Of a stretch of 64,000 bases of DNA, positions 750-50,519 are shown piece by piece. The position numbers and the translations under genes were made by a program. Numbering within the stretch: position 1 is the stretch's first letter; the number at the start of each line of letters is the position of its first letter. Source of the DNA: Diplolepis rosae (Eukaryota > Arthropoda > Insecta > Hymenoptera > Diplolepididae); contig JAPYXD010000728.1 in the NCBI GenBank assembly GCA_030998225.1, positions 1,178,001-1,242,000 on the forward strand, written 5' to 3'. The notes below the pieces were generated by a model. That model did no database searches and was not told where the DNA came from. It saw only the letters and a list, made by a program, of their open reading frames with translations.

Positions 750-2894
750 ATTTCAAAGTCCACTTCAATTCCATCAATTATAATATCAACGGAAGGTTTA
801 AAAAGTCCAACACACATGATGATTGATGATGGTGCTGCTCGAAATTTAATCAAACAAAAGGTTCTCAACACTGAAGTATCAATAAATAGCCAAAACGTAT
901 TAAAACTTACATGAATTAATGATTTACCACTTTACACATTGGGGCAGGTAAAAATAAACATTTTTGGCTATCCAACAATATTCAACATTATTCCGAATGA
1001 AGTCCTAGTAGAAGAAGATGGAGTATTAGGATCAGAATTTTTTCAAAATAATACAGTAAATATAAATTATACTTCAAAATGCTTAGAAATTGAGAACCAC
1101 TGCTACCCTTTTAAATCTACTAATACATTTAATATTCCAGCTTGAACAGTTACAATTTTAAATGTCAATATAAAAAATACAGAAATGAGTGAAGGGTATG
1201 TACCTCGATTACATATCGATGATGGCGTGTACGTAGGAGACGCAGTTGTAAAAAATCACAAAGGAAAAGCATATTTGAAACTTGCAAACACAAATGAAAT
1301 ACCAATAACATTATCAGTCCCAATAGTTAATTCAGAAGATTTTGAAGAACAAGAAAGATATAAACAAATTGAAAATTTACATAATTTTAAACAAACAAAT
1401 AACGAGGATTTATCAAGTAAAATATTAAATAACTTTTTGAGAACTGACAATTCCCCACTCAACTCATGCAAATTTTATAATGTAACAGACGAAGACAGAG
1501 TAGAATGTATTGAAAAACTTCTTCGATTAGACCATTTAAATCAAGATGAATATGAACACGTAGAAAAATCAACTAAAAATAATGCAGACAGATTTCAAAT
1601 CCCAGGAGAACCACTTGAAGCTACTAATGTATTTCAACATTCCATTTCTACTGTAGTCGACGCTACAATTTTTTCAAGACAATATAGATTTCCTCCAGTT
1701 CACAAAGAAGAAATTACAAGACAAGTCGATGAATTATTAAAACATAAAATAATCAAGCCCTCACAATCACCGTATAACACTCCAGTATGGATAGTTCCTA
1801 AAAAACCTGATTCTCAAGGAAAAATAAAATGTGGAATGGTTCTTGATTTTCGTAAACTAAATGAAAAAACAATTCGTGATTTGTATCCTCTACCTAATAT
1901 AAACGATATACTTGATTCTCTAGGATCAGCAAAATATTTTTCAGTGTTCGATTCAGCTACCGGTTTTCACCATATAAAAATGGATCCAAAAGACTCACAT
2001 AAAACCGCGTTTTCTACACCTCAGGGTCATTACGAATTCGATAGAAAGCCTTTCGGTTTAAAAACTGCATCAGCTACATTTCAGAGATTAATGGATTTAA
2101 CATTAGCTAGATTAATCGGAACGGAACTTTTTGTATATCTCGATAACATTGTTATATATGCAAATACCCTAGAAGAGCATGAATTTAAATTAAACAATTT
2201 AGCAGAAAGACTTAGGAAAGCAAATTTTCATTTACAACTGGACAAATGCGAATTTTTAAAACCCGAAGTAGGATATTTAGGTCATATAATTGATAAAAAT
2301 GGAGCACGTCCAGATCCAAAAAAGATAATAGCTTTCGACATTTTAAAAGCAAAATTATGTGAAAAACCACTTTTACAACGACCTGCTTTTCCTCAACCAT
2401 TCATACTCGCAACAGATGCCTCCGGATTTGAAATAGGAGGTGTTTTATCATAAGGTAAAATAGGTAAAGATAAGTCAATAGCATATGCTTCACGTAGTCT
2501 AAGTGAAACTGAGAAGAAATATGATACATATGAGAAAGAAGCTCTTGCTATAATATTTTGTGTAACTCATTTTCGTCCTTATTTGTATGGAAGAAAATTT
2601 ACTTTAGTGACTGATCACAAACCTCTAGTTTGGTTTCAAAATTCTAAAGACCCTTGTTCACGAGTTTCACGTTGGAGATTGAAACTCGCAGAATATGATT
2701 TTGATGTAATTTACAAAGCAGGAAAAATGAATGTAAATGCAGACGCTCTCTCAATGAACCCTATTGATGATAACAAAGAGAAATCAAAATATTCAGAAGC
2801 TTATGACAACAATACTTGCATGACTTCTCAAGAAAAAATGTTTTCCAAGAAAACGAAAAATGAGGTAAGACCTTCAAAAACGAAGAAACTTTAA
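750..2894 (+). pseudogene. pol: Family 1 copy A: pol remnant, protease - reverse transcriptase - RNase H
   Basis: A single reading frame carries, in order, a retropepsin region around 825-1130, a linker beginning 'YVPRLHIDDGVYVGDAV', the RT (about 1690-2330) and RNase H (about 2400-2760, 'ATDASGFEIGGVLS', 'TDHKPLVWF', 'NADALS'). Breaks: TGA near 912, TGA 1143-1145 and TAA 2451-2453. The protease site reads 'MIDDGAARN' where D-S/T-G-A is expected. The RT catalytic box reads 'FVYLDNIVIY', so the second Asp of Y-x-D-D is Asn. Compared with element D, about 50 residues between RT and RNase H ('RPDPKKI' joined to 'IAFDILKAKL') are deleted. The enzyme would copy element RNA into DNA, but this copy cannot be active. 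The arrangement is that of the Ty3/gypsy (Metaviridae) group. Confidence 0.92.
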
Positions 2895-4535
2895 TCCAGG
2901 AATCGTAACAGACGACGTAAATCGTGTTAGCGAAATTTCGGAAGCCCAAATATTAAATATCGACTCAAAATCCCAGAATATTTTCAGGAATTTCTTAGTG
3001 AAGAATTATTTAGTGAGATTGGTAAGAATATTTTTAAATACACAAATTTATTCAAAAATATCAATATCAATATCAATATCAAGACTTATTTTTTGGACAA
3101 TATTTTTATTAAGTCCAGTGTTTTCCAAAATATACGAAAATTCATCATGGAAAACTATTACTACAAGAGCGCAAAAGAGAATACAACAAGAAAAGGCAAA
3201 AAATTTGAATGGAAATGAACCTCAAGAAAAAGTAGACGAACATTTTTCTTTTAAATCTTCTGTGAAGAAACCACGAGGTAGGCCAAGAAAAAATCTAGTT
3301 ACAAATTTGAAAAGTATTCCCTCTCAAACCGAAAGAAAGAGAGGTAGACCAAGAAAACAAATATATGAAAATGAATTACCAGAAATAAATCTGCAAAAGG
3401 GAAACAGAACAAAAGTGGAATCAGATTCCGACTCTGATCTTGATTATTCAGATTTTTCAAAACAAACTCAAGCAAAAAACAAAAAAAAGAAGAATGCCAA
3501 GAAGCCAAAAAATATTAATGGATTTGAAAGCGAAAGAAGTGAAAATTATTTTTCAACCTTAGGAGATGAAATTAACGACATTGAAATCTCACACGAAGGA
3601 AATGATGTAGAAAATTATGAAGAATGTTTGGAAGAGAATTTTGAAGATGATCTTGAAGATAATTTTAAAAAGAATTTCGAACAGAATTTTAATGAAAATT
3701 TTGAAGACAATCTTGAGGAAAATTTTGAAGAAACGTTTGAGAAAAACCAAGAAGAAAACTTGGAAGAAAAATTTGAAGATCCTCATTTTAAAGAAAATTT
3801 AAAACGAAACCGAAGATCTCAAATAAATTCTGCAAAAACGATAATGATCATGATGATTATAATCGACCACTCCCAGTACCTCCACCTATAAACTCTCTAA
3901 CAGAAAAAATTATAACTAGGAAAAATTTAGTTGAATGTCGCGATCAATTAACTATGCGAAAAGATAATTATGCATATTTTGTTACAACAAATGGGACTCT
4001 TCGTGACAACGGATCAAAAACTTTAGAAAAACGTGAAACTTTACCAAAATTTGGAAATTTACAAAAGGGAATAGCAAAGGAGATTGAAAAAGAAAACTAC
4101 TACCATTTTGCACTTCCAATTTAAGAAGAAAACAAAGAAAATTTATCCGAAATTTTGAATTAGTATTATATTATCGTATTATATTATAGTATATTCAATT
4201 AGTATTTCAAAAACTTCCAGAATTAATAATATACCTTGGCAAGAAGTCAAATCAATTTTCGATTCAATTGTTTCAAATTCAACTACAACAATTATAGTTT
4301 GCAATGGAATAACGCAATATCCAACAGAGGAATAATGAACTCATGTAATTGAAGAAGCTCATTCTTCAGCATTAGAAGGCCATTAAGGCGTCACAAAACC
4401 TTATAGCCGAATTCGCTAAAAATTTTGGAAGTGTTAGGAAAAGGGAATGTCAAAATAAGCTATAAAGACAAACCTGCTGTATTTCACATTAATAGACTAA
4501 AACGCCCACATGTGCAAGTACAAAACTAAATAAAT
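2895..4535 (+). pseudogene. Family 1 copy A: AT-hook/acidic linker of pol and collapsed integrase
   Basis: The open part 2998-3891 follows RNase H. It contains two AT-hook cores ('KPRGRPRKN' near 3270 and 'RKRGRPRKQ' near 3340), a Ser/Asp cluster ('ESDSDSDLDYSDF') and then a run of degenerate 8-12-residue repeats of the type N-F-E-x-N-(F/L)-E-E from about 3625 to 3780. A short conserved box ('AYFVTTNGTLRDNG', near 3970) follows; element D has it too, just before its integrase. Of the integrase only the start ('AHSSALEGH', near 4345) and the extreme C-terminus ('HINRLKRPHVQVQN', to about 4530) remain. The whole catalytic core is deleted. AT-hooks bind the minor groove of AT-rich DNA; a role in integration targeting is my inference. 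Confidence 0.75.
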
Positions 4536-4582
4536 AAAAATAAAATAAAATTTCTTTACCTTAATTATAAAAAAAATATATA

Positions 4583-6240
4583 TGTTACGTCCCGAGCAAA
4601 AGGCGAGGATAGTTTGAAATTTAGATGTAAGGGAGGCGCTTAGCTGATTATATCAGGTTGGTAAGGCCTGATAATTTATTTTTGTTTGTGCGTACGTTGT
4701 CACTTGTCAGGTCTATGGGCCCTGAGTTGTTCACAATGATAATAAAACACTGAATATATTAATAAATGAAATAAATTATTAAAAATAAATAAAATGTTGC
4801 GCAAGTTTTCACACAGGATGATACTTAGGTGGTAACTTACTTGTCTACCTCTTAAATTAGAGGACAAAAGTGAGAATTGTGGTTTTTTACTTCTATTATT
4901 GCAAGTCAACGGCAGAAATCTTTGCAGGATAGTTGGGTTTCGTTTGAGTCTCCATGAAGTAGCAAAACAACGATAAATCTTGCAGGAGGTATGGTGGAAG
5001 AGATGCAAGTCCACCAGCAACTGATGTGATCAATTATCCGCTTACGTGTCATGCTAACTACACGGGAAATGAAACAAACATGCACTTGTTAACAAGATAG
5101 GTTAGTTCATCTCGATTTCAGAAATGAATCACTATTAACCGACACGACTAAATACGACGATACACGTAATCCAAAGGAACTATCTAGCACTACGGTTTTC
5201 GGTCTTGTACCACTTAAGGACCAAGAATTTTATTTACCAAGTACCGAATGTAGAATTGCTCATAGAAATCCAATGAGACTTACGTTTATCGAATGGTCTG
5301 CTCACGGCGTTGAATTACCGGTCCGAACCTAATAACCGTACAACTGCTCGCAACTTAATGACAAACCACCAGAGGTAAATCTGGGGTATATATACTATTG
5401 ATGCCTCCATTAATGGGAGCAGATCAACATAAATCGGTCGCACGGCACGTTCGAACCGTAAATCAGTGGCAAGGCACATTCGAATCGCAAATCGGTGGCA
5501 AGGTACGTACGAATTGCGAATCGGTGGCCAGGCACGATCTCTGCAAGAGTTCATGAGTTCATCTCTTCTATTGCCTAATTTTATATCTAGTTCCCAAATA
5601 AATGCATTTTTATTTACTTATTTCTGCATCTATTTGTCTGTGATTTATATTACTTATTTTACGAAGTATGACCATTAATTGATTGCCAATGATCAGTCAA
5701 TCAATTCTTTATTTATGATCCATAATCAATAATCGATTTTCATTCATTGGTCATGATTGACTTATCGGCAATCAATACATAATGGTGCTAATATTGATCA
5801 ATACTATGTTACTCCCAGAGATATTAATAATAGTTGTGATATAATGTTAATATAATATTAATATAATAATGCTTATAATATTTAGACATTATATTTAATG
5901 AGGCTGTGCTGATAACTTTTCATTCTCTCATTAGGTTATTAGCACAGCGTTACTACTTTATCGACATGCGGTGTGAGTTACTGACTCATTACCACGGGTG
6001 CAATTACTATATAGATAGAGCGCTGTTCTTCTTTATCACTCATTACCATGTGTCAAAACGATTCGTCGACGTGAGGTAAACATTGGTTTACCTTATGCGA
6101 ACAGCTACTCGGTCCACATGATAATTCACTATAGCAACACTATTGTATTTAAATAATTCCTTCCTCGCTCTACTTGGTGTGTGGCGTGTTGCCCTTGCAC
6201 AGAGGCAATTTAAAAATTTTAAAGTTACTGGGATGTAACA
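4583..6240. mobile_element. Solo LTR (Ty3/gypsy type), inserted between integrase and CARD of copy A
   Basis: The block begins TGTTACGTCCC and ends GGGATGTAACA, an inverted terminal pair, and is flanked by TATA on both sides (4-bp target duplication, though within TA-rich DNA). Copy C has the same flanking sequence without this 1.66-kb insert, which proves the insertion. Its ends match those of element D (TGTTACATCC...GGACGTAACA), so the two belong to related families. A TATA-like stretch (GGTATATATAC near 5386) precedes a 29-bp tandem repeat. No coding sequence is convincing inside. The internal region was probably lost by LTR-LTR recombination. Confidence 0.85.
5431..5543. repeat. 29-bp tandem repeat (about 3.5 units) inside the solo LTR
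   Basis: Units starting near 5431, 5460, 5489 and 5518 share the core AATCGGTGGCAAGGCAC. They lie about 40 bp downstream of the TATA-like stretch, so they could be regulatory, but nothing more can be seen. Confidence 0.75.
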
Positions 6241-6333: not shown

Positions 6334-6618
6334 ATGATGGAACAAATTCATCGCAAACGCAAAGATGATCTTATTGAAAGAGTTCCCTGTTTTATCGACA
6401 TGGTAGCTCTCCGACCATATTTAATTCAAACTGGAATTTTTAACCAAGACGACTGCAATATACCCACATGGAGCAGAGACCTAAACTATCCAGATATAAT
6501 AAAAGACATTTTTTCAACAATCAAAACAAGAGGACCGGACGCATACAAAAATTTAATTCTCAGTTTACGGCTATTAAATAACATTGTCATAGCCGACATG
6601 TTGGATATCATTGACTAG
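6334..6618 (+). CDS. CARD (caspase recruitment domain) protein carried by the retroelement, copy A
   Basis: This is a 94-residue open frame with two possible starts (6334 and 6337). The whole protein has the CARD pattern: an N-terminal helix with 'HRKRKDDLIERV', then 'LRPYLIQTGIFNQDD', and the hallmark 'IKTRGPDAYKNLILSL', the R-G-P-x-A-(F/Y)-x-x-(F/L) box of caspase-type CARDs. CARDs are six-helix death folds that join caspases (Dronc, caspase-9) to adaptors (Dark/Apaf-1). A CARD-only protein could act as a decoy that blocks apoptosome assembly, or it could promote death. The gene sits between integrase and the G glycoprotein, as in copies B and C. It is one of the few intact frames of copy A, although its shortness alone could explain that. 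The fold call is confident; the function is inference. Confidence 0.88.
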   Translation: MMEQIHRKRKDDLIERVPCFIDMVALRPYLIQTGIFNQDDCNIPTWSRDLNYPDIIKDIFSTIKTRGPDAYKNLILSLRLLNNIVIADMLDIID

Positions 6619-6737: not shown

Positions 6738-8587
6738 ATGGGAATCCAAGGCTTCCTTTTGGCACTGCTCACTTGCAACTTCAACTATATAATTTTGTTT
6801 ACGAATTTTAAATTCTGTATTTTTAATACGATGCGCAGCGATAAAATTTTCTAATCACAGTTATTAGGCAAATTTTAGAGAAGCTTGCTGTCACAAAATA
6901 CAATACAAAAGTCTCAATAATGCATAAACATGAAAGTAAATCTCGAATCACTGTTAACTCTGTAATGATTGAAACATCCTATACGAGTTCACGCACTCCA
7001 ACGCATGATACTGTGATGTTGCCTCTATTGACAGAAGTCTGCGGCGTCGTTAATGACTGACTGAATGCTTATTCGTGGCAGAATCGTATTTAACAAGTGA
7101 TTGCGAAAAAACACGTCAAGATGTGACCCCATATTTCTGTGTTATTCCGACATGACATTTTAACGCGTTAATCACACGCAAATGCACAATGAATAGTACA
7201 CTGGAAATACTCAACAAATCTTTTTCGTGAATGAACACAAAGAAGTATCAAACATTGATAAATATAAGTCTCTCATTTCAATTGACGAAATATTGAGCTC
7301 AATCTTTTGCTATCAGGGTACATGATGTTACACGAGATCAATGTAATCAAATGCACACAATAGGAACATTTTTAGTAACCCTTCCATTCAGATATCAAAG
7401 TTGAAAGTAAACGGAACTTCATTTCATAGCGTTACTTTAGCAGGTTCTGTAACACCTAACGGAGACTGTAGTGGTACACAATTTTCTGACCCATATGGAA
7501 CATGGAATAATGTCGTAGTCCAGGCAATATTCGAAATAACTTCACAAGAACATTACGCGACTATTCATTTAAATTCAAATAAAATTCCATTATGATCTGG
7601 AATAATATGCACACTTTCAATATCACACATTCACCAGACGAATTTGCATATCATTTAATGAAAGGCCCAGGATATATGTCAGTAATTGTAGGAGAAGTAG
7701 TACATATCATAAAATGTATACCGGTTGAAGTAAAATATCGCAAAACTCAAGAATGATATCTACAACTACCAATATTTAGAGGAAATCAATCCTTTTTCCT
7801 TTCTCCACGAACTCATATATTAACAAAATCCGGTATCCAGACAAATTGTAATTCTTTCCTTCCACGAATGTACCTTTTTGGAGAAACCTGGTACAAATTA
7901 CTTCCAAACCCTGTCGAATTCATAGCACCAACTATAGTTAAACCTCTCACAAAAGTAACCTGGAAATATACAAATCCTTCATCCTTAGCAACAAGCGGCA
8001 TTTATTCTTAATCTGATCTTGATAAGTTACGAGATCATATTATGTTTCCAGCAACAAAACAAATGATTCTAAATTCTTTAGCTAGAGAAATAACAGGACA
8101 TCCAACTACTAATCAAGGAATATCATTAACGAATTTATTTAATGAAGATGTAATTGATAAAATTGCTGTATCCGCATGGGGTAGATTTTGGACAATTTTT
8201 ACAAGTTTTGGAACTACTAGTGCAGGCCTAATTGGAATAATTATAATAATTAGAGGGATTAAGTTGATAGCGGATGCCATTATTCATGGATATGCACTAC
8301 ACAGATTATTTGGATGGTCTCTCCATCTACTAGGCACCTTCTTGGATTCGGTCACTAACCTCTTATTACACTTAGGTACCCATCGACCTTCTGGACCTCC
8401 CGTTGAGAGCCATCAACTTCTGCTAACAGCTTCAGCGCCACAAAGCTCGAAAAAGGCACCTAAAAGTTCATCGTATAACGCAAATACTACTTCAGGTAAA
8501 GATCATAATAATACAAACACAACTCTTTATCCTCACTCTGAACTAAAAGAAGAACTTAGTAGAACACACTATTCTATCCAAATCTAA
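6738..8587 (+). pseudogene. Family 1 copy A: chuvirus-like glycoprotein (G), broken
   Basis: The frame starts with a hydrophobic signal segment ('GFLLALLTCNFNY'), is interrupted at about 6795 by roughly 515 bp of unrelated DNA, and resumes near 7311 ('HDVTRDQCNQMHTIGTF'). A TGA follows at about 7593-7595, and about 600 nt found in copies B and C are deleted at about 7617. The remainder carries 'KGPGYMSVIVGEVVHIIKC', 'FLSPRTHILTKSG', a membrane segment near 8215-8260 ('TTSAGLIGIIIII') and a Ser/Thr-rich tail to 8587, with stops near 7756 and 8009. The pattern GPGY...GEVVxxxKCxPVxV...PRTxxxxxxG...C is what I associate with glycoproteins of chuviruses (Jingchuvirales) and related mononegavirus-like insect viruses. 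It would mediate entry or membrane fusion. Family call is inference from motifs. Confidence 0.75.
6795..7310. other. Unrelated sequence replacing part of G in copy A
   Basis: Copies B and C show continuous coding here. Copy A has about 515 bp of AT-rich sequence with no recognisable gene and no clear terminal repeats, replacing about 230 nt of G. It is most likely an old insertion with a deletion, or recombination debris. Confidence 0.6.
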
Positions 8588-8597
8588 CATCTTCAGA
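8585..8597 (+). promoter_or_regulatory. Candidate branch point and 3' splice site before the first dsRBD ORF
   Basis: CTAACATCTTCAG lies immediately before A-ATG (8598). CTAAC is a textbook branch-point sequence, but only about 9 nt separate it from the AG, which is short. Treat it as a weak candidate. Confidence 0.35.
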
Positions 8598-9086
8598 ATG
8601 TCGCATGTTCCTTTTACTAATTTATTGAACAAACTCATTCAACAAAGAGGAGATCCACCCCTCAATTACGAAATACTCAATGAACAAACCATTAATAACG
8701 ATTATTTATTTCACGTCAATTTACAATATAAAAATTAAATAATTATAAGTAGTGGCAAAGATAAAGATAATGTAAAACAAGGGGTAGCACGGAATTTATA
8801 TCAAACCTTAATTAATGAATCGGGAAAAACCTATCAAAATGACAAACCAAATTTTATTAGTAAAAATTGGAAGAAATTAAACGAATTTTGCACTCAAAAC
8901 AAATTTTCATATCCAAAATATACGGTATTACGAATAAAAACTTCATCAGAAAATTCAGCATATATAGCAATTTGTTTCAGTAACAACATTAAACAAATAG
9001 GAATAGCAAATTCGATAGAAACAGCTAAGAATTTTGCTGTCATAAAAGTTATTAATTCTCTTTCGCATAAAGACAATAAATTCTGA
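8598..9086 (+). pseudogene. Retroelement-borne protein with two tandem dsRNA-binding domains (copy A)
   Basis: The frame from ATG 8598 to TGA 9084-9086 spans 162 codons with one in-frame TAA near 8736. Domain 1 (residues about 4-70) shows 'PFTNLLNKLIQQRGDPPLNY' then 'GKDKDNVKQGVARNLYQTL'. Domain 2 (about 88-155) shows 'WKKLNEFC...FSYPKYTVL' then 'GIANSIETAKNFAVIKV'. Both follow the dsRBD plan: N-terminal helix, P-x-Y strand, then a C-terminal K/A-rich helix starting G-x-x-x-x-x-AK-x-x-A. dsRBDs bind A-form dsRNA without sequence preference. In insect viruses such proteins often suppress RNAi by shielding dsRNA from Dicer-2, and that role is inferred here. The gene starts 11 bases after the G stop codon. 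Copy B has lost this ORF. It is broken only by the single nonsense codon. Confidence 0.82.
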
Positions 9087-9123: not shown

Positions 9124-9414
9124 ATGGAGCATTACTACGACGATCCTACCTACGTACCAAGTTACAAAAAGAAGAAATGCAGAACTGACTCCATGGGATT
9201 TTTAAATCATGTAGAAATTTTAAGAAATTTCCCGATAAAATATGGACTGTCGTTACCGCAATGTACGGTCTATCCTGATCCGAATTCGGAAACAAACTCA
9301 TTTTTTCTTGCACAAATTAATATAAATGAACATTTTGTTATACAAGCCGGCCCTACTAGTGAATTAGCAGAAAATATAGCAGCATTAAAATTATTGTCAC
9401 TACTAATGAGATAA
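9124..9414 (+). CDS. Retroelement-borne protein with a third dsRNA-binding domain (copy A)
   Basis: This intact 96-residue frame starts with a basic stretch ('SYKKKKCR'). Residues about 27-96 form a dsRBD-like domain: 'FLNHVEILRNFPIKYGLSLP', the strand 'CTVYPDPNSE', a beta segment 'NSFFLAQININEHFVIQAG' and the final helix 'TSELAENIAALKLLSLL'. The corresponding helix in copy B reads 'TSELAENRAALK', closer to the canonical K/R-AA spacing. The K-K pair that contacts RNA phosphates in classical dsRBDs is weak here (S-E-L), so it may be a protein-protein or non-binding dsRBD. It lies 37 bp after the two-dsRBD ORF in another frame; the two could be one split protein or separate genes. Conserved in copy B at 21195-21481. 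Confidence 0.75.
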   Translation: MEHYYDDPTYVPSYKKKKCRTDSMGFLNHVEILRNFPIKYGLSLPQCTVYPDPNSETNSFFLAQININEHFVIQAGPTSELAENIAALKLLSLLMR

Positions 9415-9459
9415 TGCGATCTCTGCGACAAAATTTTTTATAATAATGATGATTAAAAA

Positions 9460-9708
9460 ATGCAAAAAACAAAAAATCAACGTGTTCAAACCGATCCAAG
9501 ACCAAAATTAATATCTTGGAAAAATTCCTGTACGTTTTGTAACACTCAAATGCATGCTACAAAAGAGTGCCGTAGACGAAATATTTTTAAAGTAGACAAA
9601 TCAACCCAATTTCCCCCTCCAGTTCCACCAAAAAACTCCTCAAAATTTACTAGACTTTTTTCCCCTTTTCTCCAAAAAACTTCTAGACCTAAATCCAACC
9701 ACATGTAA
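9460..9708 (+). CDS. Small basic CCHC zinc-knuckle protein (copy A)
   Basis: An 82-residue frame with one knuckle 'CTFCNTQMHATKEC' (C-x2-C-x4-H-x4-C), a basic patch 'CRRRN' and a Pro-rich segment 'FPPPVPPKN'. Such knuckles bind single-stranded nucleic acid and are typical of Gag, but this one stands alone far downstream of gag. Copy B preserves the knuckle exactly ('CNTQMHATKEC', near 21050-21000 on the minus strand). The stop codon TAA overlaps a consensus 5' splice site (ATGTAAGT), see the intron entry. Spliced, the frame would run into the F-type envelope, so this could be a leader exon rather than a separate protein. Confidence 0.6.
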   Translation: MQKTKNQRVQTDPRPKLISWKNSCTFCNTQMHATKECRRRNIFKVDKSTQFPPPVPPKNSSKFTRLFSPFLQKTSRPKSNHM

Positions 9709-9767: not shown

Positions 9768-11140
9768 ATGAATTTCCTCAATCAACTAGCATCCAGAGTG
9801 TATTTAATTTTAATTCCACTCCTTTTCTCCAAAGCAGAAAAATATTGCATAGACTCACAATTTTCTCATTCTTCAGGGATTTATTTTGAACCAATTTCAA
9901 AAGTTCGTCTTTTTTCTGAAAAATATCATTTAATATCTTATATCGATATCTTTCAGCCAGACGTACTTAAATACAAAATAATATATTTCTCACATAAATT
10001 ATATAAATATTGCATACTTTCAAATATTGCCAATAATTTTAATTTATAGGATCATCAAACACAACTTGATTTTATAGAACAACGAATCAACTATTTTATC
10101 GAAGAAATATCATTTATATCTAGACAAGCTCGTAATATCACGAATATTTCTAAAAATAATTATCCATTCTTGCAACAGATACAAAAAGTATTTTTAGAAT
10201 TGAGAATAAGACAGGAAACCTCCCTTTACTGGCCCAAAGAAAATTTATTCCTACTTCCTAATCCATTTTTCCAAAAAGTTACGAATCTTTCTTCAAAACT
10301 TGGCAACATTAAGACTTACAAAGATTAGCATAGTTCTAAAATAGATCCAAATATTCGCCTATATCGAATATTAGCAGCAAATTGGCTTAAAGAACTGCAT
10401 GAAATTTCACAATTTTTCCTTTTACTCCTTGACCAACTCACAAAAGCCATTACCCATGCCGTAACTAATTTATGGCACCCTATGTTACTTCCAAATACTT
10501 TCTTAGACTTCAAATCTAACAAAGAAGACCCACTCCTTTCAAAGTCCCTTTTTTCTATGGTCCTTCCATTTTCTAAAATACGATACTTCTTATTCGATAA
10601 GTACTTGATTTTTATTATGACTATACCAATCCCATCTGCTGAAGAATTTCAATTATTTAAACCACATCCAATTTCAATACATCTCGATTTTAATACTGAC
10701 GTAATTTCTTCTATTTACATAAAGCTTCAAATTTCTTATCTCGCTATTTCTTCAAATAACCAATCATACTTTACAACAAATAAAAATTTCCTCAATGCAT
10801 GTTATCAAAATGGATTTCAAACATTTTGTCACCCACTAAGATCTATATCTAATATCGATAACAATCCTATTTGTGAAACATCAATGTTTCTAAATTCTCA
10901 ACCATACAAGTGTGAAATATTCATCAGTTTTAGTGAATATCCCTTTCTAACACCATTGCAATTTCATCATGGATGGCTATACTCAACAATTTTTCATCGA
11001 CAAATTTTCCTGTCATGTCTAAAAACCTCTAAGATCTTAATCACTCTCCAAAGATTAGGAATTTTGCAAACAAAATCAGGTTGCAATCTCGATTTATCAA
11101 CACCATATTACCACCTACAAAACCATTTGACTATAATGGA
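9768..11140 (+). pseudogene. env: Family 1 copy A: errantivirus/baculovirus F-like envelope protein, truncated
   Basis: ATG 9768 opens a signal-peptide-like start ('YLILIPLLFSKAE'), then 'GIYFEPISKVRLF' and 'YHLISYIDIFQPD', the N-terminal pattern of insect errantivirus Env and baculovirus F proteins. Further on come 'IFIMTIPIPSAEEFQLF', 'ISYLAIS', 'CHPLRSISNIDNNPICE' and the Cys-flanked box 'ITLQRLGILQTKSGC', all in F-family order. Breaks: TAA near 10049, TAG near 10328, a frame change before 10482, and loss of everything after 'LTIMD' where a foldback element begins at 11138. The missing C-terminus with its membrane anchor is present in copy B. I could not see a furin site followed by a Gly-rich fusion peptide. 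F-family proteins drive membrane fusion. This is the second, unrelated envelope gene of the same element. Confidence 0.82.
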
Positions 11141-11719
11141 CTCGAAGCACGTGTGGCAGTGAATGCAGTGACCGCTGTTTTAGTTTTCTGTGAATGTTCC
11201 TTAAGTCTTCACCTATTTCAAATTAATACAGAAATGCCAAGCTCTCGATTTAAACATGTCTGCTGCAATCCGTTTAATAAAAAAATCATAGCGGAAAAAA
11301 GCAAAAAAAAATTTGCGTCTTAAGTGTATCATTTAGAGTAATTTTACGTAAAACTTCAGTCATCAATTCATCATTATAACTAATGATTCGTTTTGAAATA
11401 GTTTACGCACAAGCTTGAATGTACTTACAACAAAAATCTTTCATCTCCATTTCATTTGCTTCTATTTTGCATTGTGTACAAGAAACATCATCCGGTTTGA
11501 AAATTTTCAATTTTTCAAGTATCGAGGACGAAACGCGACGCAAATTTTTTTTTTGCTTTTTTCCGCTATGATTTTTTTATTAAACGGATTGCAGAAGACA
11601 TGTTTAAATCGACAGCTTGCCATTTCTGTATTAATTTGAAATAGGTGAACACTTGAGGAACATTCACAGAAAACTAAAACAGCGGTCACTGCATTCACTG
11701 CCACACGTGTTTCGAGTCC
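11138..11719. mobile_element. Foldback/MITE-like element in the F-type envelope of copy A
   Basis: Two arms of about 183 bp (11138-11322 and 11535-11719) are inverted copies of each other, starting GGACTCGAAGCACGTGTGG and ending with the complement CCACACGTGTTTCGAGTCC, around about 210 bp of unique sequence. Comparison with copy B shows it interrupts the envelope frame. Short open frames in the arms are by-products of the palindrome. No transposase is present. Confidence 0.85.
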
Positions 11720-18476: not shown

Positions 18477-20354
18477 TTATTTTTTTTGTATTTGTATTAG
18501 ATTTTTTTGAATTTTAATTAGTATTATTAATAGAATAAGAATTATAAGAAAAGTAACTATGGTATGTGCTATATATACTTTATGTGTACTAGAATTAAAA
18601 ATAGATGGGATGATTTTTTGAATATTTGCATATTTTGTGAGTAAGAAAACATGACTTTCGAAGGTCGATATTAGCATGTCATTTATTTTATGAAAAAGAT
18701 GTAACACATTTTTTTGTAAGTGAGGTTGTATGATCGATATATTATAAAAGAAGGGAGAAATTATTTCAAGAGAAGTGGTCGATTTACTAAGTGGAATTGA
18801 GTTATCCATTATTTTTGGGTAATTTTTAATATTATAGTATGGAATTGATGAGTCCAAATTACAGTCAGATTCTATTTGTAAAATTCCTATTCCTTGAAGA
18901 GTAATAAGGGTTTTGGAATTTTTGGTGCAAGATAAAAATATTTGTTTAGGAAGAATAGTTCAATATAGAAATCCGCGGTGTAAAAACAGTGGTGTTTTTT
19001 TTTTCTTTGGTGAGGAGGAAAAATGGCGAAATCTTTTATAGACGTTGTACAGGACTCTCTTAGGACGGGGCTAGGTATACCTGTTAAAACCAAAAAACCC
19101 TCTCTCTCAAACCAATACACCGCCCGTGGAACCGCCTTTCGGCTTTAAACTTCACGGGCGAACAACAGTGTTGTTAAAAAAGGATATTTATTGAAACTTA
19201 TAAATTTTTTACATTTATATGGTTGGGATTTTATAAACATTGATGTTTCGCAAATAGGATTATTTTGAGTACTGTATATGGAATAAGGAGGGTGACAAAA
19301 ATTTTGAAGTCCATTTTGGTGGCATGAAGTGAGGAAATTTTCATTTGTTGTGAAGTAAGATTCGTTATTTGGAAAAATCGCGATATAAGAAATTTGAGAT
19401 TTTATGAATATAGGTGTAATATAATCAGTATTGAAGTCAAAATATATTGGCGTTGAATGTGTTTTAAATACTTGAAATTCTTCAGAAGATGGAATTGGTA
19501 TGGTGATAGTAAAAATTAAGTAGTTATTGAAAGTAAAGTATCTTATTTTACAAAATGGAATGACCATAGAAAAACCAGACGTTTGAAGGTGAGGGTCTTC
19601 TTTGTTAGATTTGAAGTCTAGGAAGGTATCTGGAAGCAGCATGGGGAGCCATAAATTTATAGCGGCATGGGTTATAGCTTCCGTGAATTGTGTTAGGAGT
19701 GATAGAAAGGATCGGTATATTTCATACAAGTCCATTAGCCAATTTGCTGCAAGAATTCTATAAATGTGCAAATTTGGGTAAATTTGTGATTTATGCCAGT
19801 CTCTGTACATCTTAACGTTGTTGAGATTGGATGAAAGATTTTTTAGATGTTCAGAAAATGGATTTGGAAGTAGGAACAAATTTTCTTTAGGCCAATAAAG
19901 AGAAGTTTTTTGTCTTACTTTTGACTGTGAAGAACATTTGAATTTGGTGTAAAAATTGATCACTATTTTTGGGAATATTAGTGATGTTACGAGCCTGTCT
20001 GGATGTAAATGAAATTTCTCCGAGAAAATGATTTATACGTTTTTTCATAAATTCAAGCTGAGTGTGATGATTATATATATTACAGTTATTTGCAATATTT
20101 GTAAGTATACAATGTTCATAAAGTTTGTGAGAAATATCTACTATTTTATATTTTAAGTTTTCTGGTTGCAAAATGTTAAAATAAGAGATAAAATTATCAC
20201 TTTCGGAAAATAGACCTATTTCTGAAATTGGTTCAAAATAAATACCAGATAAGTGATAAAATTATGAATTGATATACAAATTTTTTGCTTCAGAAGTAAA
20301 AAACAGAATTAGCATCAAGTATACGCCAGAAGGTAGTTGGTATAGGAATTTCAT
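18477..20354 (-). pseudogene. env: Family 1 copy B: F-like envelope protein, nearly full length but broken
   Basis: ATG at 20354 starts a signal peptide ('MKFLYQLPSGVYLMLILFF'). Next come 'GIYFEPISEIGLF', 'NFISYFNILQPE', 'IFTITIPIPSSEEFQVF' and 'NPICETSMFIKSQPYKC', then after an inserted R1 tail 'LITLQGIGILQIESDC', and a C-terminal membrane anchor ('YIAHTIVTFLIILILLIIL') with a short basic-polar tail ending at 18477. This gives the C-terminal third that copy A lacks. Breaks: TAA about 19 codons after the signal peptide, a frame change near 19900-19960, and the R1 insertion at 18992-19158. The L-x-G-x-G-I-L-x-x-x-x-C box and the order of conserved segments match errantivirus Env and baculovirus F. 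Full length would be about 570 residues, normal for the family. Confidence 0.82.
18992..19158 (-). mobile_element. 5'-truncated R1-type element (3' UTR only)
   Basis: The sequence matches, on the minus strand, the 3' end of the R1-type element at 32325-36530 (the block ending in CCTCCTCACC plus poly-A, here a T run starting at 18994). About 7 bp (AACAGTG) are repeated on both sides. Severe 5' truncation is usual for non-LTR elements. Confidence 0.9.
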
Positions 20355-20370
20355 TATGCTTCTCGAATGG

Positions 20371-20912
20371 CGTAAAGCTGTCGTAAAGCTATCGTAAAGT
20401 TATCGTAAAGTAGCATTATAACTCATGAATGAGGCAAAATAAACATTCAAAATGTTTTTATCCTTCTTCTACGTTGAAAATAACGTTAAATGTTAATTGA
20501 AATATACAATAATTTTACTTATTTACGCTAAAAATTAAAAAAAAACATAATACCTGTCATTGAAGGCAGTGCAGTGGTTCATCACTTTCCATGTCTTCAC
20601 CATCAGGATTGACTATTTGTTAGAGTAAGATGAAAGTATAGTTGTGTCTTACTCCAACCAATAGTCAACTTTAACGGAGACGTTCCACAAAAGGTGAACC
20701 ACTGCATTGCCTTCAATGACAGGTATTATGTTTTTTTCACTTTTAGCGTAAATAAATAAAATTATTGCATATTTCGATTACCAATTAATGTTATTTTTAA
20801 CGTAGAATAAGGATAAAAACATTTTGAATGTTTATTTTGCCTCATTCATGAGTTACAATGCTACTTTACGATAGCTTTACGATAGCTTTTACGCTACAGC
20901 GTAAAGCTACAG
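20371..20912. mobile_element. Foldback element inserted between CCHC and F-like env in copy B
   Basis: Arms 20371-20590 and 20690-20912 are inverted copies. Each outer end carries short direct repeats of the unit CGTAAAGCTAT. The centre (about 20600-20690) is itself an inverted repeat. A fragment of the same family lies at 23379-23466. Confidence 0.85.
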
Positions 20913-20917
20913 TTCAG

Positions 20918-21155
20918 CCAGTTCGCTAGGGAAGTAGAAAATAGACTACTAAATGTTGATGAGTTTCGAGGTGGAAGTGGACGGCGAAATTGTGTTGATT
21001 TATCAGCTTTAAAAACATTCCGCCTACGGCACTCTTTTGTAGCATGCATTTGAGTATTACAATATCTACATGAATTTTCCCATGATACTAATTTCGGTCT
21101 TGGATCAGTTCGAACACTTTCATCCCTTGTTTTTCTTGTTTTTTTTTTTTACAAG
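20918..21155 (-). pseudogene. Family 1 copy B: CCHC zinc-knuckle ORF
   Basis: Minus-strand counterpart of 9460-9708: 'RTDPRPKLVSW' and 'CRYCNTQMHATKEC' are preserved. The end is cut by the foldback element near 20918, removing the intron donor seen in copy A. The start is blurred by an A-rich run. The conservation of the knuckle between copies supports it as a real product. Confidence 0.65.
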
Positions 21156-21194: not shown

Positions 21195-21481
21195 TTATTA
21201 ATAGTTATAGTTATTTCAAAGCAGCTCTATTTTCGGCTAACTCGCTTGTAGGACCCGCTTGTACAATAAAATGATCGTTTGTGTTAACTTGAGCAAGAAA
21301 AATTGATTTGGTTTTTGAATTTGGATCGGGATAAACGATGTATTGTGGTAACAATAATCCATATTTTACAGTAAAATTTCATAAAATTTCCACCTGGTTT
21401 AAAAGTCCCATAGAGTCTGTTCTACATATCTTTTTTTTGTAACTTCGCACGTGGGTAGGCTCATCATAGTAATGCTCCATT
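21195..21481 (-). pseudogene. Family 1 copy B: third-dsRBD ORF
   Basis: From ATG 21481, the frame matches copy A (9124-9414): 'DSMGLLNQVEIL', 'LPQYIVYPDPNSK', 'DHFIVQAGPTSELAENRAAL'. Internal stops occur after 'VEIL' and after 'AALK'. 'PQY' and 'AENRAAL' are closer to the dsRBD consensus than in copy A, which supports the domain assignment. The two-dsRBD ORF that precedes it in copy A is deleted here (only about 130 bp separate it from G). Confidence 0.7.
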
Positions 21482-22549
21482 GCAGATGATTTTCTGAATC
21501 GGTATGGAATATTTATGTTAGAATTTATTGTACTGATTGGGGGCTCTATATCCGCATTTAAATCATTTCTTAAAGCTTTTTCCAGAAAAAGGCGATGTAG
21601 TAGAAATATTATTTTTTTTGTGTTTTGTGGTGCTGAAGCTGTAAGCAGTGGTTGATGGCTCTCAGCGGTTGTCCAGCAGGTCGGTTGGTACCTAAGTGTA
21701 ACAAGAGGTTAGTGACCGAATCCCAGAAGGCGCCTAGTAGATGGAGAGACCATCCAAATAATCTATGTAATGCATATCCATTAATAATGTTATCTGCTAT
21801 TAATTTGATCCCTCTAATTATTATAATTAATCCGATAAGACCTGCACTAGTAGTTCCGAAATTTGTAAAAACTGTCCAAAATCTACCCCAAGTGGATTCA
21901 ACAATTTTACCAATTACTTCTTGGTGAAATAAATTTGTTAATGATATTCCTTGATTAATAGTCGGATGTCCTGTTATTTCTCTAGCTAAAAAATTTAAAA
22001 TCATCGGTTTTTCTGCTGGAAACATTATATGATCTCGTAACTTATCAAGTTCAGATTGAGAATAAATGCCACTTATTGCTAAGGATGAAGGATTTGTATA
22101 TTTCCAGGTTGCTGTTGTTAGAGGTTTAATTATAGTTGGTGCTATGAATTCAACAGGGTTTGGAACTAATTTATACCAGGTTTCACTGAAAAAGTACATT
22201 GGTGGAAGGAAAGAATTACAATTTGTCTGGATATTGGCTTTTGTTAATATATGTGTTCGTGGAGAAAGGAAAAAGGATTGATTTCCTCTAAATACTGGTA
22301 GTTGTAGATAACATTCTTCAGTTTTGCGATATTTTACTTAACCGGTATACATTTTACGATATGTACTACTTCTCCTGCAATTACTGACATATATCCTGGG
22401 CCTTTCATTAAATTATATGCAAATTCGTCTGGTGATTGGGTTGCTAAGGTTAATGTATTTCTAAAAACTTTCTGTTCAAGTATGCATCGTTGAGTAAGAA
22501 CATCGTGATAAAGTCTATTTACTTCAGTGCGTATGTGTCGTTACACACA

Positions 22550-23943: not shown

Positions 23944-24834
23944 GTTAATGAATAAAGGGTTTCAGAATTGTCTGTCGTGTTGTCATATGTTTTATTTGCT
24001 GCTCCTTCATAAATAATTTCATATTTGTTAAAATTACATAGTCATTAGGTAATGTAACCCAGAATGTTTGTCCATATTCTACGTCTGTACAGAATGTCTC
24101 TAAAAGTGTGCATATTATTCCAGATCCTAATTGAATTTTATTTGAATTTAAATGACTCGTCGCGTAATGTTCTTGTAAAGTTATTTTGAATATTCCTTGG
24201 ACTACGACATTATTCCATGTTCCATATGGGTCAGAAAATTCTGTAGCAGTACAGTCTCCGTTACCTGTTACAGAACCTGCTAAAGTAACGCTATGAAATA
24301 AAGTTTCGTTTACTTTTAACTTTGATATCTGAAGAGAAGGGGTTACTAAAAATGTTCCTATTGTGTGTATTCGATTACATTGATCTCGTGTAACATCATG
24401 TATATATTCACTGTGGCCATTTGCAACTATGGAACTGTGAGAATGCATACCACAATTAGAGATGGCGCGTCGAATTTCTATTTTGCATTGTATTACTTTT
24501 GTATTTGAAAATCCAGTTAATTGTAAAAGCTGTATATAAGTTCTTTCAACATGTACTTGAGATCGAGGCAGATCACATTCTCCTACCTCTAGTAAAGATA
24601 ATGTCGTAATATTTGATTGATTTGAACCGCAATCAAATCCAATGATGGCGTAGACTGTTGTTATATAGTTGAAGTTGCAAGTGAGCAATGCCAAAAGGAA
24701 GCCTCAGATTCCCATCTCTGGAAAAAGGGGGATCCAATTAGCAGCTCGCTTCGTAATATAAAAATATAAAAATGTTTTATCGTTACATATGTATATTTTT
24801 AAAGTTATTGATTTACTTTTTGTATTTTGCGTTC

Positions 24835-25118
24835 CTAGTTAATTATATCGAACATGTCGGCTGTGAAAATGTTATTTGATAGCCGTAAACTGAGAATTAA
24901 ATTTTTGTATGCGTCCGGTCCTCTTGTTTTGATTGTTGAAACAATGTCTTTTATTATATCTGGATTGTTTAGGTTTCTGCTCCATGTGGGGATATTGCAG
25001 TCGTCTTTGTTGAGAATTCCAGTTTGAATTCAATATGGCCACAGAGAGCTACCATGTCGATAAAACAGGGAACTATTTCAATGAGATCATCTATGCGTTT
25101 GCGATAAATTTGATCCAT
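24835..25118 (-). pseudogene. Family 1 copy B: CARD protein, frameshifted
   Basis: From ATG 25118 the frame matches copies A and C for the first CARD helices ('RKRIDDLIEIVPCFIDMVAL'). A 2-base gain after 'MVAL' shifts the frame. The nucleotides beyond still encode the TRGPDAYKN box in the shifted frame and reach the TAG at 24835-24837. Position is the same as elsewhere: directly upstream of G. It is useful as a third witness that the CARD gene belongs to the element. Confidence 0.8.
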
Positions 25119-30431: not shown

Positions 30432-32324
30432 AATGTACTGAGACGGCCCAGCCCCAAGTATCCGCCTTTTGCGAGGAAACGGGGACGAAATCCACAAAAA
30501 CAATTTCGAACTTTGAGTAAAATTTGATGCCAATAAATGTTCAATATTTAAATCAATATATATTTTTCTATTTAAATTTCCATACTTCTAATCAATTTAG
30601 TACATTTAAAACATTTTCAGTAAGATAGATATATTCTATTAAGAAAATATTAACATAAAATTAAAGTTTAAAATTTACATTCTCAGTTTTATGTTAGAAA
30701 TATTTTTATTTTACATTTTTTTAGCCTAAGCATAGACTTTTCATTCAAAAAATGAAATGCTCTACAGAAAGGAAAAATTTTGTAATAGAAGTGGATAAAT
30801 TAAAAAACTAAAATATATGTTCATTGCTATCTTCACATGAACATGTAAATATTTACAAGTTACAATTGACAATTTGACAAGATTTTTACATCCTGCGTAA
30901 GTTTAAATTGTTAATATTCATGTAGAATAAGAAATTAATACGTCGATTCTTGAACATTTTCGGTCACCTAGTATATACGGGAAATAGACACTTGAATGCA
31001 GCTGACTTAGACTGCAGGAGTGCAATAAACATGTCAAAGTGCATGATAAGGACGCTCCCCTAGTCTTAAGGCACTGCACTTAGAGCACTTTTCAGATTTC
31101 TTATAGATGTTTACAGTTTCTCTTCAAAATAATATTTTGTAAAATTTCTTTTATTTTGAACTACCTTATCGATAAAATCGCGCGAAATCAAAATAAATTC
31201 AAATTATATGTTCAAAGATGCGACAAAATTTTATAATATCGTTAAATAATAAGTTTAATTATAAGTATAAAAAGAAAACAAGAAAGGGGTGAAATTCACA
31301 CATGCGAATTAATTAAATTAGTAATTCATGTTAAACTTTAGTGAAATTTACCGGATAGGACTTAAAATATAAGGAAATCTGAAGAATGTCGTTTATTTTT
31401 AAGGAATTTTGTAAAGGGCAAAGTTAATATGAGGACGCTCGGTATAACCCAAAAAAAACCCTCATGCTCTCTTTGTCTTACCCATAGAGCATATGGGAAA
31501 CAAATCATATAAATACGGCGACAATTTCCATGAAAAATCAGTTCATCCTAGACTTGGTCCTAGGAAACACTAAATTTTTGACAGACTTGGACTTGGTCCA
31601 ACTATACTCAAACTCATTTTCTTAATTTTTACGTTTGTGTAATTACATGTTTGAAATTTTACGCGAGTTATTAAAAAATTGTTAATACGACTATCCAGCG
31701 ACTTGTATCTCAAACAACCAACAGTTTCTAATAAAATTCCAAGTTAAACATTTTTTACAATATTTTTATTATCCTAAAGAACCTTACAATAAATTGGTAA
31801 TTCTTACATTACACTCTGGAAATTAATTTCGTTCACTGTGTATTGCTTGTAAATGTTTATTTTATTTGTTTATAAATTGTTTATTTTATAATCGAAACAT
31901 ATCAATCTTCTAACTTTTGTAACAAGACAATACACTCTGGACATTAATTTCGTTCATTGTGTATTGCTTGTACATGTTTATTTTAATTGTTTATAAATTG
32001 TTTATTTAACAATCGAAACATTTCAACCTTCTAACTTCTGTAACAAGACATTACACTCTGGACATTAATTTCGTTCACTGTGTATTGCTTGTAAATGTTT
32101 ATTTTAATTGTTTATAAATTGTTTATTTACCAATCGAAACATTTCAATCCTTCTAACTTCTGTAACAAGACATTACACTCTGGACATTAATTTCGTTCAT
32201 TGTGTATTGCTTGTACATGTTTAGTTTATTTGTTTATAAATTGTTTATCTAACAATCGAAACATTTCAACTTTCTAACTTCTATAACAAGACATTACACT
32301 CTGGACATTAATTTCGTTCACTGT

Positions 32325-36494: not shown

Positions 36495-36534
<40 letters not shown>

Positions 36535-39445
36535 GTTCACTGTGCATTGCTTGTAAATGTTTATTTTAATTGTTTATAAATTGTTTATTTAACTATCGAA
36601 ACATTTCAACCTTCTAACTTCTGTAACAAGACATCACACTCTGGACATTAATTACGTTCACTGTGCATTGCTTGTAAATGTTTATTTTAATTGTTTAAAA
36701 ATTGTTTATTTAACAATCGAAACATTTCAATCTTCTAACTTTTGTAACAAGACATTACACTCTGGACATTAATTTCGTTCACTGTGTATTGCTTGTAAAT
36801 GTTTATTTTATTTGTTTATAAATTGTTTATTTTATAATCGAAACATATCAATCTTCTAACTTTTGTAACAAGACAATACACTCTGGACATTAATTTCGTT
36901 CATTGTGTATTGCTTGTACATGTTTATTTTAATTGTTTATAAATTGTTTATTTAACAATCGAAACATTTCAACCTTCTAACTTCTGTAACAAGACATTAC
37001 ACTCTGGACATTAATTTCGTTCACTGTGTATTGCTTGTAAATGTTTATTTTAATTGTTTATAAATTGTTTATTAACCAATCGAAACATTTCAATCTTTCT
37101 AACTTCTGTAACAAGACATTACACTCTGGACATTAATTTCGTTCATTGTGTATTGCTTGTACATGTTTAGTTTATTTGTTTATAAATTGTTTATCTAACA
37201 ATCGAAACATTTCAACTTTCTAACTTCTATAACAAGACATTACACTCTGGACATTAATTTCGTTCACTGTGCATTGCTTGTAAATGTTTATTTTAATTGT
37301 TTATAAATTGTTTATTTAACTATCGAAACATTTCAACCTTCTAACTTCTGTAACAAGACATCACACTCTGGACATTAATTACGTTCACTGTGCATTGCTT
37401 GTAAATGTTTATTTTAATTGTTTATAAATTGTTTATTTAACAATCGAAACATTTCAATCTTTCTAACTTCTGTAACAAGACATCACACTCTGGACATTAA
37501 TTTCGTTCACTGTGTATTGCTTGTAAATGTTTATTTTAATTGTTTATAAATTGTTTATTTAACAATCGAAACATTTCAACCTTATAACTTCTGTAACAAG
37601 ACATAACACTCTGGACATTAATTTCGTTCACTGTGTATTGCTTGTAAATGTTTATTTTAATTGTTTATAAATTGTTTATTTAACAATCGAAACATTTCAA
37701 CCTTCTAACTTCTATAACAAGACATTACACTCTGGACATTAATTTCGTTCATTGTGTATTGCTTGTACATGTTTAGTTTATTTGTTTATAAATTGTTTAT
37801 CTAAAAATCGAAATATTTCAACTTTCTAACTTCTATAACAAGACATTACACTCTGGACATTAATTTCGTTCACTGTGCATTGCTTGTAAATGTTTATTTT
37901 AATTGTTTATAAATTGTTTAATTAACAATTGAAACATTTCAATCTTTCTAACTTCTGTAACAAGACATCACACTCTGGGCATTAATCTCGTTCACTGTGT
38001 ATTGCTTGTAAATGTTTATTTTATTTGTTTATAAATTGTTTATTTAACAATCGAAACATTTCAATCTTCTAACTTTTGTAACAAGGCATTACACTCTGGA
38101 CATTAATTTCGTTCATTGTGTATTGCTTGTACATGTTTATTTTAATTGTTCATAAATTGTTTATAAAATTGTTTATTTAACAATCGAAACATTTCAACTT
38201 TCTAACTTCTATAACAATACATTACACTCTGGACATTAATTTCTTTCACTGTGTATTGCTTGTAAATGTTTATTTTGATTGTTTATAAATTGTTTATGTA
38301 ACAATCGAAATATTTCAACTTTCTATTTTCTATAACGCATTACACTCTGGACAAAACTTCGTTCATTGTATATTGCTTGCAAATGTTTATTTTAATTGTT
38401 CATAAATTGTTTATTTAACAATCGAAACATTTCAATCTTTCTAACGTCTGTAACAAGACATTACACTCTGGACATTAATTTCGTTCACTGTGCATTGCTT
38501 GTAAATGTTCATTTTAATTGTTTATAAATTGTTTATTTAACAATCGAAACAATTCAACTTTCTAACTTCTATAACAAGACATTACACTCTGGACAAAACT
38601 TCGTTCATTGTGTATTGCTTGTAAATGTTCATTAAACCTATTTGTTCATAACATTGGTTATTTAACAATATCAAATAATTCGATTTTCTTACTATTTTTG
38701 ATAACGCATTACACTCTGGACAAAACTTCGTTCATTGTGTATTGCTTGTAGATGTTCATTAAACCTATTTGTTCATAACATTGTTTATTTAACAATATTA
38801 AATAATTTGATCTTGCTATTTTTATAATGCATTACACTCTGGACAGACTTCGTTTATTGTGTATTGCTTGTAAATATTCATTAGACCCATTTGTTTATGA
38901 CTTGGCTTACTTAACAATATCAACATTATTAAACTTCCTACGCTCTGGACATTAATTTCGTTCATTGCGCTAAATGTTGAATTGTGATAGTTCTTCTGTC
39001 TGATGATTCATGTCTATTAAAAATATTTTAGGGTGTTTCTGAATTTGTTTAACCGCCCTGGTTTGTTCTCAGCCCTTCGAGGATGGGTGAAATACTCTCA
39101 TGATTCTGCTAGTAATTCACGCAATCTTATTACGGTGAATAGGCCTAGATTCCTAAGTTATAACGCATGGGCGTTGACTTAAAAACATTTAGTGATTAAA
39201 CTACTTGAGCGTCGCAGGACGTAACATAATACTTAGTTAACATTTTTGGAGGCCCCGGGGGGATTGCGGCCATAATTGCGTAGGGACATCGCGGAATTAC
39301 TTATACCCAAATTCGTTTAGAGTTCGATATTGCTGAACGGTGGTAAAAATTTGAAGGCTTCAAGTCTATCTGGTGAAGAATTTCTTCAAAGCACACTATT
39401 AAAGGCTTGGAAGGTGTTAGTTAAAATGCGCCTGTAGTTACCAAA

Positions 39446-41802: not shown

Positions 41803-41859
41803 TCGGGAAACGGACAGAGTCTCCCGAGTACGAGTGCAGGACAGGAGACTCCCAAGTAC

Positions 41860-44800: not shown

Positions 44801-45122
44801 CGGCAGAAATTCTGATACTGATTTTTCTGACACCGATGATGAATCATGTGAATCTGAAATAGTAGATAAAATAGATACAGACAAAAGTAGTTGCAACCAA
44901 CAATTATTAAATGGAAATTTAGATAACGAAGAGAGTACATCCCAAATTAAAGCAACAAATGAGACCGCGTTTAATCACAACATAGTTGAAACAAAGGAAC
45001 TGCTACAGTATCGTTCGGATAACATTGCGTACTTTGTAACAAGCAACGGAAGCCCGTGCGATAAGGGCAGTAAAGCATTAATAGAAGCGAAAAAATCCCA
45101 GTTAAATGTACATTACAGGTAG
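41860..45122 (+). pseudogene. pol: Element D pol: tandem protease - RT - RNase H - linker
   Basis: One frame (stops at 43257, 43827 and 44544) carries two retropepsin units in a row. Unit 1 spans about 41960-42260 ('LMIDSGSQGNIVKI', 'DGILGVEFL'); unit 2 about 42390-42680 ('LLDTGSEGNIIKI', 'EGILGVEYF'). An acidic linker follows, then RT ('VVPKKSDQSGKPRWRVVLDF', 'FVYIDDIVIYA' with intact Y-x-D-D), RNase H ('TTDASGYAVGGILSQG', 'TDHQPLIW', 'NADALSRNP') and a charged linker ('RQRTKRKRKEE', Ser/Asp clusters, 'AYFVTSNGSPCDKG'). AT-hooks like those of family 1 are not present. Catalytic residues look intact apart from the stops. RT and RNase H copy the genome; the linker matches the position of the family 1 linker. 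Confidence 0.9.
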
Positions 45123-46428: not shown

Positions 46429-46469
46429 AGGAAAAAGAAGAATAATTCAGAAGATGAATAATTAGATTC

Positions 46470-46484
46470 ATATTCTGATTGCAG
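46470..46484 (+). promoter_or_regulatory. Candidate 3' splice site directly before element D env
   Basis: TATTCTGATTGCAG ends immediately before ATG 46485. A donor-like ACAG|GTAAGC exists in early gag (40735). Joining the two would place the env ATG out of frame with the gag start, so another donor may be used. Confidence 0.5.
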
Positions 46485-50290: not shown

Positions 50291-50519
50291 TTGAATTGTG
50301 ATAGTTCTTCTGTCTGATGATTCATGTCAATTAAAAATATTTTAGGGTGTTTCTGAATTTGTTTAACCGCCCTGGTTTGTTCTCAGCCATTCGAGGATGG
50401 GTGAAATACTCTGATGATTTTTTTCATTTCTCATTTTTTTGGCATAAGGTCAGATTCTTTTTATTTTCGTCGATTAAAATTTTCACTATTAAATAGAAAA
50501 ATACTCAAACTGAAAGCAA

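Follow-up and report, generated by a model that had tools for sequence, protein, structure and literature searches.

For insect retroelements that carry an envelope gene, the genes usually listed are gag, pol and env. A 64,000-nucleotide stretch of the genome of Diplolepis rosae (contig JAPYXD010000728.1, positions 1,178,001 to 1,242,000 of the forward strand; hereafter the window) raises the question of why such an element should also hold, between pol and env, a small open reading frame (ORF) resembling a CARD, a domain of the death-fold class. This ORF had been pointed out by a reading of the sequence alone. We examined its three copies, called A, B and C, its relatives and its surroundings. 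At a probability of roughly 0.55, we read it as a CARD-only accessory gene of a Gypsy-like endogenous retrovirus, whose product would mimic the prodomain of an initiator caspase and occupy the host adaptor Dark/Apaf-1.

The sequence-only reading had reported a 94-residue frame, open in A and C, in three copies. The ORF encodes 94 residues in copy A (6334-6618, plus strand) and 93 in copy C (58289-58570, plus strand), with 87% identity between them, and it is open from ATG to stop in both. The same gene is found in copy B (24835-25118, minus strand), but there a frameshift near codons 24-29 interrupts it, and the TRGPDAYKNL motif, complete in A and C, lies in a different reading frame. The CARD DNA of all three copies can be aligned, and self-comparison of the window revealed common DNA in identical order in A, B and C, with B on the minus strand. 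An AG is located 2-5 nucleotides (nt) upstream of the CARD ATG in each copy, and a pyrimidine-rich AG directly precedes the ATG of the glycoprotein gene G. Because the ORF has its own start and stop and an AG just before its ATG in three copies, we infer that it is made as a small protein of its own, perhaps from a spliced mRNA.

Database searches identified 71 proteins related to the ORF. Adding the two window proteins gives 73, of which 33 have a length of exactly 93 residues, which indicates that the frame is more than a chance one. Profiles were made from 27 mostly close relatives (A2) and from 14 proteins (A7). Exclusions by eye preceded the statements on profile, fold and length. We left out sequences with extensions (P0005, P0015, P0019, P0021-P0023 and P0027), truncated, gapped or fused ones (P0029, P0033, P0034, P0036-P0040, P0042, P0043, P0045-P0056, P0060, P0066 and P0070-P0073), and P0069 as the second isoform of P0068. 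The ten best of the 12 matches of the A7 profile were caspase CARDs, covered nearly over their full length. When 17 members were scanned singly, five reached the cut-off of the Pfam CARD family (PF00619), P0030, P0058, P0065 and P0067 lying above it and P0061 at 23.9 bits; P0041 had no Pfam match at E 10, and an NCBIfam scan gave nothing relevant. AlphaFold predicted a six-helix death fold for the relative P0062, which is 20-24% identical to the caspase-9 and Dronc structures, and the top PDB matches in Foldseek had a probability of 1.00. Three lines of evidence thus support membership in the CARD family: the profile, the fold predicted for P0062 and the relatives scoring above the Pfam cut-off. 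The identity first proposed is supported by a profile search that did return CARDs. As the ORF ends after the CARD in A and C, with no caspase protease domain, it is caspase-CARD-like and not a caspase.

All 13 diverged full-length members that were compared can be aligned across 93 positions, with identities of 44-74%; 10 of them are exactly 93 residues long. Only two of the 71 database proteins are named, P0068 and P0069. Both are isoforms from one gene, LOC117169146, in the gall wasp Belonocnema kinseyi (Hymenoptera, Cynipidae), and P0068 shares 47% identity with copy C. LOC117169146 is a predicted gene with several isoforms, in which a CARD of this family has other ends; it could represent either an insertion that was annotated or a host-adopted gene. 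No relatives of the ORF were found in two scans of viral contigs or in a scan of bacterial and archaeal genomes.

The location of the CARD between integrase and G, also proposed from the sequence, can be read directly in copy C. There, the C-terminal domain of the integrase (GPYEI at 57933, stop at 58050-58052) is followed after 236 nt by the CARD and, after a further 137 nt, by the glycoprotein ATG at 58708. However, C alone shows this order directly. Upstream of the CARD, copy A has an integrase remnant with an internal deletion (about 4200-4583), separated from the CARD by approximately 1.65 kb without a match. In copy B the match to C starts immediately after the end of the integrase, and other repeats lie on the far side. 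We compared 17 database homologs, selected by eye, with the window in a run of 19 queries that included the two window proteins. CARD residues are joined to other parts of the element in eight of the 17: to the integrase in P0047, P0051, P0055 and P0060, to the frame between RNase H and integrase in P0056 (about 18 CARD residues only), and to the glycoprotein or the DNA around its start in P0053, P0049 and P0027. These eight are decayed copies, with the same CARD neighbours in other insertions. Rather than the ORF being absent from this position elsewhere, pol or G sequence adjoins the CARD in other copies. This evidence on neighbours comes from the eight joined copies and does not extend to the diverged relatives P0044, P0057-P0059, P0061-P0065 and P0067.

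The ratio of nonsynonymous to synonymous substitutions (dN/dS) was calculated from Nei-Gojobori counts on the three window copies only, with significance assessed by Fisher tests. It was 0.24 between the CARDs of A and C (dS 0.238, dN 0.058, p 0.0006) and 0.29 between those of B and C (p 0.011). A value near 1 across many copies, which the sequence-only reading had named as refuting its proposal, was seen in neither pair of these three copies and is approached only in the young pair treated below. The CARD DNA is also better conserved than its surroundings, with 258/282 identical positions between A and C vs 179/224 in the non-coding gaps on either side (p 2e-4), and 257/282 between B and C vs 170/209 in the flanks (p 0.002). 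When neutral evolution was simulated without indels, 2.2% of frames remained open by the time mean identity had fallen to 49%. On these sequence comparisons, the ORF looks to have been kept by selection.

Several observations weigh against our reading of the ORF as a CARD gene that mimics a caspase prodomain. The Pfam CARD scores of the window proteins A and C, 14.9 and 16.5 bits (E 0.027 and 0.0088), remain below the cut-off of 23.9. Alone against the PDB, the copy C protein (P0002) gave three matches and no CARD among them: a designed repeat protein, a phospholipase C and a xylanase. The first of these, at E 9e-5, was discarded, its match being spread over the repeats with no single significant stretch. 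The A2 profile ranked designed repeats first (E 9e-5 and 0.011) and listed PB2 chains, and Dronc came eighth at E 0.95. An AlphaFold model of P0002 with 27 mostly close relatives had three helices and a pLDDT of 59.3, and was not used. Helix 1 of CARDs is kinked or split, whereas DSSP assigned a single helix, residues 3-19, to the P0062 model, leaving helix 1 unbroken. Foldseek gave no match at E 0.001 or better, and its viral matches were weak (E 1.5 and up). Of the basic residues 13, 52 and 56 of caspase-9, which we take to be its contacts with Apaf-1, only position 56 is basic here, in 11 of the 14 A7 members as judged by eye. Between A and B, the CARD has a dN/dS of 0.75 (p 0.57, dS 0.095), and its identity of 261/282 shows no clear contrast with that of the flanks (185/209, being 63/83 before and 122/126 after). 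A ratio near 1 is expected from decay after insertion, since the pair is young and B is broken. The argument from open frames and their length is itself weakened because the database contains only open frames. The sub-threshold Pfam scores and the A-B ratio would suit a frame that is a mere passenger, a captured host fragment hitch-hiking without function. This explanation is very improbable given the low A-C ratio, a CARD more alike than its flanks in both A-C and B-C, and a length of 93 positions held in every diverged member, when so few frames stayed open in the simulation.

In the reading that we prefer, the ORF would derive from an initiator-caspase prodomain, and its product would dock on the CARD of the host Apaf-1/Dark adaptor, at the place where Dronc docks. 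Occupation of Dark/Apaf-1 would block the recruitment of Dronc and prevent apoptosome-driven death of the cells in which the element replicates, and the delay would give time for particle production and transfer. Selection would then have kept the CARD because host-cell death is averted during replication. CARD-only proteins can act as decoys, and here, too, the product may be an anti-death decoy, with germline or follicle cells as a putative setting. CARD complexes of Dronc with Dark and of caspase-9 with Apaf-1 appear in the titles of the matched PDB structures. The protein might instead pair directly with Dronc, the host initiator caspase, and sequester it, leaving the adaptor alone. Charge counts gave no pointer to a binding side. 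The 12 matches of the A7 profile list caspase CARDs and neither an Apaf-1 nor a CED-4 CARD, which suggests that the element's protein stands on the caspase side of the pair. As the profile resembles that side, Dark/Apaf-1 is the likelier target, and sequestration of Dronc is quite unlikely.

The fold matches also list the CARDs of MAVS, RIG-I and MDA5, as would be expected if the protein acted on another death-fold pathway, for instance through an immune signalling adaptor, and suppressed antiviral signalling instead of apoptosis. None of the three is among the 12 matches of the A7 profile, and to our knowledge no MAVS pathway is known in insects, making this an unlikely target.

A fourth element in the window, D, bears on whether the CARD serves the element itself. 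D (41790-48428, plus strand) contains protease, reverse transcriptase, an integrase ending at 46426-46428, and from 46485 a G with one in-frame stop. That glycoprotein (46485-48428, plus strand) is of the Monjiviricetes type and nearly complete, scoring 631 bits against PF24664 for 46731-48425. With the integrase stop and the G start so close, D has no room for a CARD. The CARD of A-C might nevertheless be structural, for example as a self-assembling tether for Gag or the polymerase, or it might promote death for particle release. Many CARDs form filaments, assemblies of MAVS, NLRC4 and CARD9 are among the fold matches, and the CARD lies among structural genes. The related D, with the same type of glycoprotein, lacks a CARD at this place; the basic cycle is therefore probably independent of it, and we regard such roles as decidedly improbable. 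D extends over about 38-50 kb, with direct repeats of 90% identity at its two ends that lie within stretches of approximately 121-bp tandem units and are likely its long terminal repeats (LTRs). Long repeats made of these units occupy 31279-32324, 36529-39105 and 48697-50419.

The host of the CARD is, from its genes, an env-carrying Ty3/Gypsy-like endogenous retrovirus with Gypsy-type pol and a Monjiviricetes-type G, in keeping with the Metaviridae type proposed initially. Reverse transcriptase and RNase H, with one in-frame stop between them, are found in A (1146-2894, plus strand; RVT_1 E 4.1e-28, RT_RNaseH_2 and RT_RNaseH). They are followed by a frame with an AT-hook (2869-3891, plus strand; AT_hook E 3.8e-4) that lies before the integrase remnant and matches B at 28250-27488 in DNA. 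In copy C, 56997-57485 (plus strand) encodes the integrase's zinc-binding domain together with most of its core domain (Integrase_H2C2 E 1.2e-16, rve E 5.5e-10), and 57486-58052 (plus strand) encodes its C-terminal part. Two in-frame stops interrupt this integrase, one before the C-terminal part and one inside it. The order reverse transcriptase-RNase H-integrase is thus pieced together from A, from the H2C2 integrases of C and D and from the GPY motif of C, as no single copy among A-C contains every pol part. According to PMC12440569, the GPF/Y motif characterizes the integrases of Gypsy elements and retroviruses.

Envelope genes are present as PF24664 in A, B and D, and as Baculo_F in A and B. 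Fusion glycoprotein remnants of A span 7347-8587 on the plus strand (PF24664 E 7.9e-40 for 8042-8584, with 7347-7595 assigned by DNA match to B). B holds an N-terminal piece at 23945-24703 (minus strand; E 3.2e-70 for 23948-24694) and a C-terminal piece at 21609-22337 (minus strand; E 1e-62 for 21612-22199). The broken start in C and the DNA matching B cover 58708-59679 (plus strand). No LTRs were found for B or between A's start and 3' flank; A is cut by the window edge and C lacks its 5' part. The window contained no tRNA and no Rfam match at the gathering threshold. D and A-C look like captures of a chuvirus-type glycoprotein by Gypsy. Gypsy fragments adjoining chuvirus-type glycoproteins in Hymenoptera are described in PMC10084718, according to which no clear capture by Gypsy was found.

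Downstream of G, copy A has three pieces resembling double-stranded RNA-binding domains (dsRBDs), at 8547-8738, 8739-9086 and 9124-9414 on the plus strand (dsrm E 0.12, 5.1e-4 and 0.015-0.024, none reaching the cut-off), with weak PDB matches to R2D2 (E 0.067) and TRBP (E 1.6). They are followed on the same strand by an ORF with a CX2CX4HX4C zinc-knuckle pattern (9457-9708), recognized by eye, without a Pfam zinc-knuckle match and kept in B at 20894-21148, and by a baculovirus F-like glycoprotein piece (10329-11162; Baculo_F E 1.2e-11). Copy B holds the last dsRBD-like piece (21211-21378, minus strand; dsrm E 0.0081, under the cut-off), the zinc knuckle and F (18477-20032, minus strand; Baculo_F E 2.1e-6 for 19148-20032, with 18477-18959 assigned by position only and without a Baculo_F match). 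A second, baculovirus F-like glycoprotein, at 10329-11162 in A and 19145-20032 in B, thus stands alongside the Monjiviricetes-type one in the same element. Between A and B, dS is about 0.1 for the CARD and the N-terminal part of G. It rises to 0.37 for the end of G (dN/dS 0.35), 0.66 for the zinc-knuckle ORF (0.36), 0.94 for F (0.32) and 1.27 for the third dsRBD-like piece (dN 0.10, dN/dS 0.08, p 3e-15, leaving out three stop columns). The history of the 3' block therefore seems to differ from that of the CARD-G block, which suggests an A/B mosaic, probably by recombination. The dsRBD-like protein was probably under strong purifying selection and could serve this element as a suppressor of RNA interference. 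More tentatively, and at less than even odds, the whole might be a complex insect retrovirus equipped to counter host defences, with a caspase-CARD mimic directed at apoptosis and a multi-dsRBD protein like R2D2 and TRBP directed at RNA interference. It would also have two unrelated fusion glycoproteins, obtained when lineages exchanged entire blocks of genes, and possibly a host-adopted CARD in Belonocnema LOC117169146.

Compared with known systems, the ORF shares with the prodomain CARDs of Dronc, caspase-9 and CED-3 (PF00619) a near-full-length profile match, the six-helix fold and the RG-x-x-A turn. It differs in the absence of a protease domain, in its coding by a mobile element and in the low identity noted for P0062. 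Lymphocystis disease viruses 3 and 4, cod iridovirus and equid herpesviruses (E10) likewise encode a CARD, of 93-99 residues in the three iridovirus matches. However, these are DNA viruses and not reverse-transcribing elements, and the likeness seen is one of fold, the matches being weak (E 1.5-5.4). Like a viral CARD-only death inhibitor, the ORF is a stand-alone CARD encoded by a virus-like element, with the block of apoptosis as a prediction only. Among retroelements, Anakin (PMC7642597) also has a fusion glycoprotein of negative-strand-virus type, namely a chuvirus one, but it is a BEL/Pao element, whereas the element studied here resembles Gypsy and has CARD, dsRBD-like and F genes. The errantiviruses of insects (PMC12992720, PMC13172572) share with it the Gypsy-type pol and the envelope gene, a baculovirus F-like gene being present here too, and the texts on them name gag, pol and env. 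None of these three texts contains the words accessory, apopto or caspase. The MDG1-group retrotransposons with sORF1 and sORF2, as presented in PMC11952523, are insect Metaviridae with a short accessory gene, but sORF2 is described there as a membrane fusogen-like protein and not a CARD. Among the literature matches listed, judged by title and start of abstract, there was no report of a CARD gene in an LTR retroelement.

If the proposed function is true, env-carrying insect retroelements may also fight the cell-death response of their host, as large DNA viruses do, and whether apoptosis bars the transfer of retroelements in insects would become directly testable.
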